NCBI GenBank assembly: GCA_913042085.1
Contig: CAJWKH010000002.1
Coordinates: 1 to 57,590, forward strand
Origin: an uncultured Gammaproteobacteria bacterium
Lineage (GTDB): Bacteria > Pseudomonadota > Gammaproteobacteria > Magnimaribacterales > Magnimaribacteraceae
DNA: 57,590 nucleotides
Reading direction: 5' to 3'
Shown: in pieces, positions 53,376 through 57,590 of the stretch
How positions within the stretch are numbered: the stretch's first letter is position 1
How the letters are laid out: each line of letters begins with the position of its first letter
Program-made: the position numbers and the translations under genes
The notes under the pieces: model-generated
What the model saw: only the letters and a program-made list of their open reading frames with translations
The model's database searches: none
What the model was told of the DNA's origin: nothing

Positions 53376-55247
53376 ATGGCAAAAAAAGCAAAAACCCCAG
53401 TAGTTGAAGTTAAAGAAAAGGAAGTAGAAACTCCAGAAGAAGCCGAAGAGGTATTATTTGGAGAAGAAGACCTAGAAAACTCCGGTCTAAGAGAACTGCT
53501 TGATAAAGGTAAGGATCAAGGGTTCCTAACTTACCAAGAAATAAACTCAATGTTACCTGAGGATATTTCAGACCCAGATCAAGTGGAAGAGACAATACAA
53601 ATGCTTATGGATATAGGCATAGAAGTTCTAGAGTCAACAAATACTTCGGGTGGAGATAATGCTGAGGCAGCTCCAGAAACTATAGCAGATACAAGAACAA
53701 CTTTGACAACTGTTGAATCAGAGGTCGGTAGAACCACTGACCCTGTTAGGTTGTATATGAGAGAAATGGGAACAGTTGATCTCTTGACAAGAGAAGGAGA
53801 GATAGCCATTGCTAAAAGAATAGAAGAGGGTGCGAGAGAGTTGCTGTTCGCTTGTTGCTTCTATCCTGGAATTGTTGATCGAATATTAGATGAATATCAA
53901 GAAGTTGTTTCAGAAGACAAAAGGCTATCTGAAGTGCTTGTAGGATTTATGGACATAGAAGAAGGAATTCCACCTCCTGCGTTAGCCCAGAAGAAAGAAA
54001 AAGAAGAGAAAGGTGAGACAGAAGAAGAAGAGCAAACTGGTCCAGACCCTGCCGAGGTAAAGAAAAGATTTAGCTCTTTAAAGAGACAGTTTAATAAAAC
54101 TGAAAAAGCTTGTGTTAAATCAAGAACAAGTAAAGCAGCAATTAAAGAACAAGAGAAGTTAGGCGAAATTTTTAAATTTCTTAAATTGTCTCCAACTCAG
54201 TTTGAAATAATTGCTAACCCTGCCAGAGATGCATTAGAAATTATCAGAGAATGTGAGAAATTTATTTTCACGGTGATGGTTAAAAGAGGAAAGATGCCAA
54301 GAAAAGATTTTATTAAGGATTTTACTGGAAATGAAGCAAACTCTAGTTGGTCTGAGAAGATAGCAAAATCGAGAAAACCTTATGCTAAAGAAGTTAAAGA
54401 AAATATTGATGAGATAGTAAGACTGCAAAACAAACTCTTAAAGTTAGAAAAGATTATTCAATTACCGATAACTGAAATTAAAGATATTAATAGAAGGATG
54501 TCTATAGGCGAGGCGAAGACCCGAAGAGCAAAAAAAGACATGGTAGAGGCTAATTTAAGGTTAGTGATCTCTATTGCAAAGAAATATACGAATAGAGGTC
54601 TCCAATTCTTAGATCTTATACAAGAAGGCAACATTGGACTCATGAAAGCAGTGGATAAGTTTGAGTACAGAAGAGGGTATAAGTTTTCTACATACGCTAC
54701 TTGGTGGATCAGGCAAGCTATAACTAGATCGATAGCCGACCAAGCTAGAACGATTAGGATACCTGTTCATATGATAGAAACCATAAATAAACTAAACAGA
54801 GTTTCACGTCAGATGGTGCAAGAGATGGGTAGAGATCCTACACCAGAGGAATTAGGCGAAAGAATGGAATTACCGGAAGACAAGGTTAGAAGGGTTTTGA
54901 AGATAGCGAAAGAACCCATATCAACAGAAACACCTATTGGAGATGAAGAAGACACTACCCTTGGAGATTTTATAGAAGATACATCTATCGATTCTCCTGA
55001 CGAAGCAGCTACAGAAGAAAACCTTCAAGATGCGACAGATGATATTTTGGGGAGTCTGACCGCCAGAGAGGCAAAAGTATTAAGAATGAGATTCGGCATA
55101 GGTATGAATACAGATCACACATTAGAAGAAGTTGGAAAACAATTTGATGTTACAAGAGAGAGGATTAGGCAGATTGAAGCTAAAGCTTTAAGAAAGCTCA
55201 GGCACCCTACAAGATCGTCTCATCTGAAAGGTTTTTTAGACGAATAA
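53376..55247 (+). CDS. rpoD: RNA polymerase sigma-70 (RpoD)
   Basis: [77 protein letters not shown]...[34 protein letters not shown]. Confidence 0.98.
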
Positions 55248-55258
55248 GAGTTTCTACA

Positions 55259-55335
55259 GGGCCTGTAGCTCAGTTGGTTAGAGCAGTGGACTCATAATCC
55301 ATTGGTCGGAGGTTCGAGTCCTCCCGGGCCCACCA
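55259..55335 (+). tRNA. ileX: tRNA with CAU anticodon, probably tRNA-Ile2 (lysidine-modified)
   Basis: GGGCCTGTAGCTCAGTTGGTTAGAGCAGTGGACTCATAATCCATTGGTCGGAGGTTCGAGTCCTCCCGGGCCCACCA; 7-bp acceptor (one G-U), anticodon loop CTCATAA, encoded CCA. Ile2 rather than Met inferred from rpoD adjacency (as E. coli ileX near rpoD). Confidence 0.9.
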
Positions 55336-57590
55336 TTAATACGGTCTAACGTTAAATCCAATATTCAATATTGGAGATTTATCTTCAAGATATATTATTG
55401 ATAAGAACAAAGGTCCCTTCACAAGACTGATCTCTCCATCAAGATGTTTTTCCCCATTATTAGAAGTAAAGTTAAAGTTTTCTTCAGATTGAAGATTAAA
55501 GGGAGAAGAAAATTTACGTTTTGAATGCCCAAGATTTAAAGAACCGCTAAAGCCTAAAATCTCAAAAGGGTAACGAATGTCTATGAAGATATTCTGGCTT
55601 AGTGCATTTAAAGAATTAAAATGTAAATTTAAGGAATCTCCTTTTTCTTCAAATGAATCAATAAAGATCTTGTCGTAAGAAATCCCGATATTAAGTTCTA
55701 AATAGTTAAGAACTATTGGTCTTTCAATAAAAGCAGAGGTCGTTTTAAATTTCATAGCCGATGACGAACTTCCAAAAAAATTACTATGACTAAAAGCTTT
55801 CCCATTATTATCTGTATAAATAAAACCTAATCTCATTTCTGATAGCACTTTTGATAAACCTATAAAATTAGCATTTGCTGATCCTTTTGTAGTTCCTGTA
55901 AATAGTTTGAGATGATTGGGTTGGTTTGAGTTAACTCCAAATATAAAAGAATCCTCATAGTTTTTATAAATAAATTCTTTATTTCTAGATGATCTTCTTA
56001 CCTCGTTATATTGGTTAAGGGAGGAAAGTACATATTCAGAATAAACGTTTCCTTTAGATATAAAGTTATTTAATAGATCTTCGTTTTGGGGGTCCAAAAC
56101 CTGAAAATAGGTTGTCAAACTATAGTCTGTTCCATTGCCATCAGTAAAGCTGCCAATGAAGTCATAATCATATTTGTTGTCTATTTCAATAGGCCATAAA
56201 ATCCAGTCTTCATCAAGGTCAACAAAATTATCGTAGAAATCATAGAAATCTCCGTTATTAAGAAGTACATAAGTTCTAGAATTTGAATCCACTATATCTA
56301 TATCACCATCATGGTCGTAATCAATTAAATTAAGTTTTCCTTGACCAATCCACATGGTGGAATGGGGGTTTCCATCTATATATACAGAATAATTAGGATG
56401 CTTCTCCTCAGTTACATCAACAAAATTTTTACCCTCAATATTCTTAAAGAATTGTATGACTCTTGATCGGTAATAAGGTTCATGAATAGTGGAAGCCAAA
56501 ATGATATCTATGTACCCATCATCATCAAAATCAAAAGCCTCCATATCGTTTGCATTGCCGTTATCGCCAAAGAAATTTGCAGGCAGCTCAATAAATCCAC
56601 GTTGAGTCCAATCATTTGAGCCATTATTTAGATAGACGGCTCCTGCACTATTTTCACTAAATCCATATAAAGAAGAAATTCGAGGGTTAAACCACCCAAA
56701 TGCCACATCTCCATAACCATCATTATCAAAATCGCCTATAGTTGCTGTTGTAGGCCATAATATATCTACATTATGACCGTGATTGTCATAATCCACTTCT
56801 TGCCAGTAAAATTGAGGAAAATTATGATTTGCTTCAAAATTTCCTGTGCCATCATTAATTAAAGCTGTAAAAGGTATTATCTCGCTACAAGGCAAACAGG
56901 TATCTGGTTGCGATTCCCCACTAAATAAGTACCCAGGAGTGGTTTGGTCAAAAATAGGTGCAAAAATATCTAAGTCCCCATCACCATCTAAATCACCGTA
57001 AGCTGCATCGTGCACAAATATTTGTCCGTACTCTTCTTTAAAAAAAAGATCCGGTAAATTTGATAAACTTTTATTTTCTAATATTCCCTGATTACTAAGA
57101 TAAAGTATGCTTGTATCATAATAGTCACTTAAACCATCTCCATTAAAGTCAGCTACGATTTTTCCGTTAGTGTAGTCATGTTGATTTCCGCATTCTTTTC
57201 TTGGGTCATTATTTTCATCATTTAACCAGTTTGTACCTCCTTGAACACAAGGAAATCTATTATTTGTAAACATCTCCGGCGCTATTTTAAAGTGGCCATT
57301 TCCATCATTTAAGAACGTGATCATTAGATCCTCAGGTACAAATTCTCTAGTTCCAAATGACTGACCTACATAAATAAGGTCAGAGAAATTATCTCCATTA
57401 AGATTTGCTTCAAACCATTGCCCGATATTGAACCAAGGACCTTCAACGCTTATTTCATCGTCGTTAGAATCATCTCCTGGGTGTTGCCCTTGAGCTCTAA
57501 CTTGCAAAAAACCGTAATCTTCAATCTTATATTTATCGTTAGAGGGCAATTCACCCGAGAACCTATATTCACTCATGCTGTAAGTGAAAG
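55336..57590 (-). CDS. FG-GAP/VCBS repeat protein with putative C-terminal outer-membrane beta-barrel; N-terminus probably beyond window
   Basis: Multiple Ca-binding-type repeats (ADFNGDGLSDYYD, GDLDGDGDLDIFAP, GDFDNDGYGDVAFG, FDFDDDGYIDIILAS, IDYDHDGDIDIVDS) with LNDGNGHF/INDGTGNF; last ~270 aa are alternating-hydrophobicity strands ending in ...NIGFNVRPY. Frame upstream of the ORF-track Met (57576) has no stop before the window edge and no signal peptide follows that Met. Confidence 0.85.
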   Translation of the reverse strand, partial: FTYSMSEYRFSGELPSNDKYKIEDYGFLQVRAQGQHPGDDSNDDEISVEGPWFNIGQWFEANLNGDNFSDLIYVGQSFGTREFVPEDLMITFLNDGNGHFKIAPEMFTNNRFPCVQGGTNWLNDENNDPRKECGNQHDYTNGKIVADFNGDGLSDYYDTSILYLSNQGILENKSLSNLPDLFFKEEYGQIFVHDAAYGDLDGDGDLDIFAPIFDQTTPGYLFSGESQPDTCLPCSEIIPFTALINDGTGNFEANHNFPQFYWQEVDYDNHGHNVDILWPTTATIGDFDNDGYGDVAFGWFNPRISSLYGFSENSAGAVYLNNGSNDWTQRGFIELPANFFGDNGNANDMEAFDFDDDGYIDIILASTIHEPYYRSRVIQFFKNIEGKNFVDVTEEKHPNYSVYIDGNPHSTMWIGQGKLNLIDYDHDGDIDIVDSNSRTYVLLNNGDFYDFYDNFVDLDEDWILWPIEIDNKYDYDFIGSFTDGNGTDYSLTTYFQVLDPQNEDLLNNFISKGNVYSEYVLSSLNQYNEVRRSSRNKEFIYKNYEDSFIFGVNSNQPNHLKLFTGTTKGSANANFIGLSKVLSEMRLGFIYTDNNGKAFSHSNFFGSSSSAMKFKTTSAFIERPIVLNYLELNIGISYDKIFIDSFEEKGDSLNLHFNSLNALSQNIFIDIRYPFEILGFSGSLNLGHSKRKFSSPFNLQSEENFNFTSNNGEKHLDGEISLVKGPLFLSIIYLEDKSPILNIGFNVRPY

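Follow-up and report, generated by a model that had tools for sequence, protein, structure and literature searches.

What kind of protein is encoded at the end of this stretch of DNA, where a row of FG-GAP repeats runs into a putative outer-membrane barrel, and how did its gene come to stand there? The window (here the whole stretch of 57,590 bases that was analysed) is an entire contig, G000:C2:1-57590, of a 1.17 Mb assembly that is 74% complete. The gene in question occupies positions 55336–57588 on the minus strand, as a frame of 750 amino acids that is open at the contig end (57590). About 70 N-terminal residues, i.e. the 5' codons with the lipoprotein signal, lie beyond this end, and the missing 5' part was not present on any other contig of the same assembly. 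The nearest relative of the protein is an ortholog in SAR86 AG-343-L05 with 79% identity, and since its relatives identify it so, we assign the window genome to SAR86. We propose that the gene codes for a lipid-anchored, type Va-like (classical) autotransporter, which is mobile between SAR86 and T4-like phages and alters binding at the cell surface, and we give this reading a rough probability of 0.62.

The preliminary description of this DNA had counted at least five FG-GAP/VCBS motifs of the DxDxDG type, and these are borne out. The Pfam model FG-GAP_3 matches the window protein over its cut-off (E=1.5e-9), FG-GAP models match up to six stretches in the relatives, and the translation contains five calcium-type loops, all on the minus strand: DFNGDG from residue 147 (57133–57150), DLDGDG from residue 199 (56977–56994), DFDNDG from residue 286 (56716–56733), DFDDDG from residue 353 (56515–56532) and DYDHDG from residue 423 (56305–56322). 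DFNGDG is invariant among the relatives, and the five loops together are invariant or nearly so. Based on the Pfam match, the AlphaFold2 model of the full-length ortholog and conservation, residues 1–497 of the fragment (56098–57588, minus strand) were delimited as an FG-GAP beta-propeller in the position of a passenger. A query with the single sequence recovered nothing from the genome contigs, while an alignment query recovered the relatives used here.

The form of the complete protein can be read from these relatives. The full-length ortholog in G005 (L031/L036) has 819 amino acids and starts with ..RTAITSICVSSC followed by ASGG, which is a lipobox, and eight more SAR86 copies have a short hydrophobic stretch and a cysteine at the N-terminus as well. 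Nearly all phage copies described below carry a lipobox too, typically ..GCASGGGS. The lipobox was called by eye and by pattern (a cysteine after a short hydrophobic signal). Thus the lipobox and cysteine expected of a bacterial outer-membrane lipoprotein are found in orthologs and phage copies alike, and the Sec-type N-terminal signal of type Va proteins is found in the full-length orthologs, in the form of a lipoprotein signal. A signal peptide in the full-length gene had been named as the point to check, and the orthologs supply it. In all SAR86 copies the propeller leads on to a helix region, and this to a C-terminal domain that evolves faster.

The C-terminal domain was modelled from alignment A3, which comprises the window protein, 7 genome relatives and 15 phage relatives. 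AlphaFold2 (mean predicted local distance difference test score, pLDDT, 84; predicted template modelling score, pTM, 0.74) returned a long alpha-helix at residues 42–73 of the domain model (55990–56085, minus strand), in the linker position of an autotransporter, followed by 11–12 strands closing into a predicted outer-membrane beta-barrel of autotransporter translocator fold (55339–55974, minus strand). In a Foldseek search against the PDB, eight structures matched at E<=0.001, and all of them are autotransporter translocators (EspP, AaaA, NalP, EstA), several of which carry an N-terminal pore helix. The AlphaFold2 model of the full-length ortholog has the same order of propeller, helix and barrel, and EspP, EstA and AaaA are still among its structure matches. 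A barrel of about 12 strands in the translocator fold with a helical linker directly before it, as in type Va proteins, is thus present in the model. Because the model is a helix and a barrel and its PDB fold matches at this threshold are all translocators, we accept an autotransporter architecture for this domain by predicted fold. The putative barrel and the autotransporter-like architecture of the preliminary description both hold up in this respect, the latter in a lipid-anchored form like that of NalP. Weak matches of the barrel to FliC_D2 and to a DUF model were judged to be chance. The aromatic C-terminal residue also noted earlier holds in part: it is Tyr in the window protein and its nearest ortholog, the relatives end mostly in F, L or W, and a few end in R, N or K. 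The phage copies close with a terminal strand of outer-membrane protein (OMP) type such as YELGFRLAF.

Moreover, the coding sequence is under selection along its length. Between the window gene and its 79%-identical ortholog L036, the ratio of nonsynonymous to synonymous substitution rates (dN/dS) is 0.07 in the propeller and 0.19 in the helix and barrel. Purifying selection acts on both, with the propeller about three times as constrained as the barrel, and the value of 0.19 indicates that the last 250 or so residues are a real protein. A scan for promoters and terminators gave no signal exceeding that of shuffled sequences.

Homologs were also found in viral data. IMG/VR was scanned twice, with 36 and 43 matches that overlap and correspond to about 50 contigs encoding the gene. 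In eleven of these contigs Gp23, the major capsid protein of T4, is encoded as well (at about 1e-80), and another 19 have the T4 baseplate hub, which had no match in the control genomes. The viral matches might have come from bacterial contigs that were binned wrongly; for these 30 records the T4 virion genes rule this out. The terminase model PF03237 matches one contig only, to which we give low weight as the contigs are fragments. Downstream of the gene, L146 has the hub, the tape measure, genes of portal and of prohead-core size and Gp23, in late-gene order; the copies in L121 and L129 adjoin virion genes as well, and the position differs in L103 and L104. The Gp23 proteins are nearest to those of Pseudomonas phage PA5oct (69%) and of GAP32-type large phages. 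One viral contig, G474 (locus L104), is 250,519 bases long and T4-like with Gp23, which together with the PA5oct/GAP32-like capsids suggests jumbo phages of SAR86 or its relatives. In addition, a gene of about 100 amino acids for a SWIM zinc finger (PF04434; e.g., L121:4490-4816) stands directly upstream of the phage copies in about 18 loci and usually overlaps their start by 10–20 bases; none was seen upstream of the SAR86 copies examined.

In SAR86, the gene is rare. The barrel profile found it in 10 of 199 SAR86 genomes, distributed over 6 of 22 genera, and when 274 genomes from across the class were sampled, the sole match was the window's own. Propeller trees unite ten SAR86 copies in a single clade that lies among phage lineages, while an eleventh, L043, is the sister of phage copy L109, to which it is 74% identical from the signal peptide to the last strand. 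A single host clade is rejected in two data sets by the approximately unbiased test (p-AU 3e-46 and 7e-11). The phage diversity thus encloses the host copies. We consider it likely that the gene is mobile, serves surface display and has passed between SAR86 and uncultured T4-like phages; as long branches leave the deep branch order uncertain, the direction of transfer is only suggested, best for L043. Another propeller homolog, L042, on a 3.1 kb contig of a Piscirickettsiaceae metagenome-assembled genome, is sister to phage copies L112/L113, and this contig may itself be phage.

The place of insertion could also be recognized. In the window, the stop codon of the gene immediately adjoins the 3' CCA of a tRNA-Met (CAT anticodon, found by ARAGORN; 55259–55335, plus strand), which lies beside rpoD (sigma-70, named from sequence and synteny; 53376–55247, plus strand), a conserved chromosomal neighbour that marks the site. 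The congener G004 shows the empty site, where a gene that we take from its sequence to be YeiH-like stands 12 bases past the tRNA-Met; in G005 the YeiH-like gene sits just past the autotransporter gene. Five other genomes (G001, G002, G010, G014 and G020) hold other cargo of one to few genes at the same site. Exact copies of 45–58 bases of the tRNA-Met 3' part were found in G002 and G136, in the latter right beside the autotransporter gene, and in G115 an exact 3' part of tRNA-Phe (at least 47 bases) is located just upstream of the gene, about 1.7 kb from the intact tRNA. A scan for such tail-only copies returned none in 0.9 Mb of other loci, and neither tRNA nor tail was present in the stretches fetched around SAR86 copies L025, L026, L027, L028 and L030. 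This is the pattern of site-specific insertion at tRNA genes, in several SAR86 genomes, and both the insertion site and the gene exchange are supported at the level of sequence. G004 has one more site of this kind (L211:5964-7844): about 1.9 kb past a different tRNA (tail GTAGGTTCGAATCCTACAGGGGGCACCA) there is a copy of the tail alone, and small genes lie in the interval. Additive genomic islands of aquatic bacteria and tycheposons are known to enter at tRNA genes and to show repeats of the tRNA 3' end, and tRNA-Met is among the sites that they use (PMC10872708). The SAR86 copies resemble these elements in both features. Tycheposons carry their own tyrosine recombinase; the SAR86 inserts comprise one to few genes, with no recombinase gene recognized by eye in the fetched neighbourhoods, for which no recombinase model was run.

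How would such a protein work? The lipobox, propeller, helix and autotransporter-fold barrel are read from the sequence or the predicted fold; translocation, surface exposure, calcium binding and the role are inferred. The chain would leave the cytoplasm by Sec and receive its lipid at the lipobox cysteine, and its C-terminal 210 or so residues would fold into a barrel in the outer membrane. The FG-GAP propeller would then be threaded out through its own barrel until only the linker helix occupies the pore, and would be exposed on the cell surface with a tether at each end. In infected cells the propeller may mask or occupy surface sites, e.g. for superinfection exclusion, and in SAR86 it may be a captured surface trait serving masking or adhesion. 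For the phage copies, a changed surface of the infected cell (receptor masking or superinfection exclusion) is our leading idea, with adhesion as its main rival.

Several observations weigh against the proposed autotransporter. By sequence, the C-terminal domain has no usable match in Pfam, NCBIfam or PDB, and neither the window protein nor the alignment of its relatives matches PF03797 (Autotransporter) above the curated cut-off. Since three other genomes of the SAR86 order do match PF03797 above cut-off, this search works in the clade, and we therefore file the protein as autotransporter-like by fold and not as a PF03797 member. The Foldseek TM-scores are moderate (about 0.4–0.5), and an FG-GAP propeller is an unusual passenger for an autotransporter. 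Among the phage copies, L116 (4764-6398) and L117 end directly behind the propeller and have neither helix nor barrel, and the version of 675 amino acids in L111 (4818-6845) and L118 has an apparently much shortened barrel of perhaps eight strands, an architecture that few autotransporters would have; thus the barrel is not universal in the family. Finally, no phage catalogued in INPHARED has a homolog of the lipoprotein.

Different readings have to be weighed with these points. First, the SAR86 protein may mainly be a host adhesin or receptor for algal polysaccharide or particles, which phages took up as a host-fitness gene or receptor decoy. FG-GAP/VCBS domains are often adhesive, the propeller is the more constrained part, and L043 (AH-779-I09) stands in a bacterial neighbourhood, a polysaccharide region whose genes we take from sequence to be UDP-glucose dehydrogenase-like and glycosyltransferase-like. 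However, the gene is rare in SAR86 and diverse in T4-like phages, whose copies enclose those of the host, and we regard this origin as possible but doubtful. A bolder version of our own proposal, in which T4-like marine phages use a lipidated autotransporter of their own to place a calcium-type propeller on the infected cell and so shut out competing phages, and SAR86 repeatedly captured the gene, partly at tRNA sites, as a surface-exclusion defence, is put forward as a tentative idea that we would not bet on. Second, the barrel may be an ordinary outer-membrane anchor with both termini in the periplasm, the lipid in the inner leaflet and the helix as a plug, so that the propeller would belong to a periplasmic lipoprotein with a binding or scaffold function. 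Lipoproteins acylated at the N-terminus often face the periplasm, and in the barrel-less paralogs of SAR86 and the barrel-less phage copies the propeller must either reach the surface in a different way or not go there at all. Against this, the solved structures nearest in fold are autotransporter translocators in particular, several of them with a pore helix, the order of helix and barrel agrees with them, and lipidated autotransporters such as NalP are known; a periplasmic propeller is therefore unlikely. Third, the neighbouring hub, tape measure, portal and capsid genes in L121, L129 and L146 would suit a virion component for adsorption, but the lipoprotein signal and membrane barrel direct the protein to the cell envelope, its gene is placed differently in L103/L104 and bacteria keep it without the phage, which makes this very improbable. 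A soluble beta-sandwich or more of an incomplete propeller at the C-terminus, as its lack of a family match by sequence would allow, is hardly credible given the confident helix-barrel model with its autotransporter fold matches and the OMP-like terminal strands of the relatives.

A lipid-anchored autotransporter shared in this way would matter for several reasons. SAR86 are among the most abundant uncultured bacteria of the surface ocean, and their phage and surface interactions are largely obscure. Through a surface-display protein that both share, this uncultured host is tied by a concrete gene to the phages that likely infect it. The picture of autotransporters gains a propeller passenger and a setting in T4-like phages, and surface exclusion or receptor masking becomes an idea that can be tested. 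The gene may act in the contest between T4-like ocean viruses and their hosts, and the tRNA-Met/rpoD hot spot lets small cargo into the streamlined SAR86 genomes.

Among known proteins, the FG-GAP lipoproteins L004–L011 of SAR86 (about 600 amino acids) have a lipobox and a homologous propeller as here, but lack the helix and barrel and form a separate clade in the propeller tree. The full-length model matches two uncultured Caudovirales proteins in BFVD: A0A6J5L9S5 (831 amino acids, annotated as VCBS repeat; E 1.5e-19) and, in part, A0A6J5KUW0 (autotransporter beta-domain; E 6e-5). Both are known as database entries only, with no functional study in the literature searched. That search, with most subscription papers outside its coverage, also returned nothing on SAR86 autotransporters, SAR86 FG-GAP proteins or phage-encoded autotransporters. 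T5 Llp, a phage-encoded surface lipoprotein for superinfection exclusion, is small and without barrel or propeller; as a phage-borne outer-membrane lipoprotein it offers a functional analogy to the phage copies, and no homology is claimed. EspP, AaaA and EstA share the translocator fold, with 9–14% sequence identity in the fold alignment, and we know of no FG-GAP propeller passengers among them. The closest parallels are NalP of Neisseria and SphB1 of Bordetella, which likewise combine a lipobox signal, an N-terminal passenger, a linker helix and a C-terminal translocator of about 12 strands, and among the fold matches of the window barrel that of NalP ranks at the top. Their passenger is a subtilisin-type protease, whereas here it is an FG-GAP propeller and the barrel has no PF03797 sequence match. 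What is new, and well supported, is an autotransporter-fold lipoprotein with a propeller passenger that is common to SAR86 and T4-like phages.
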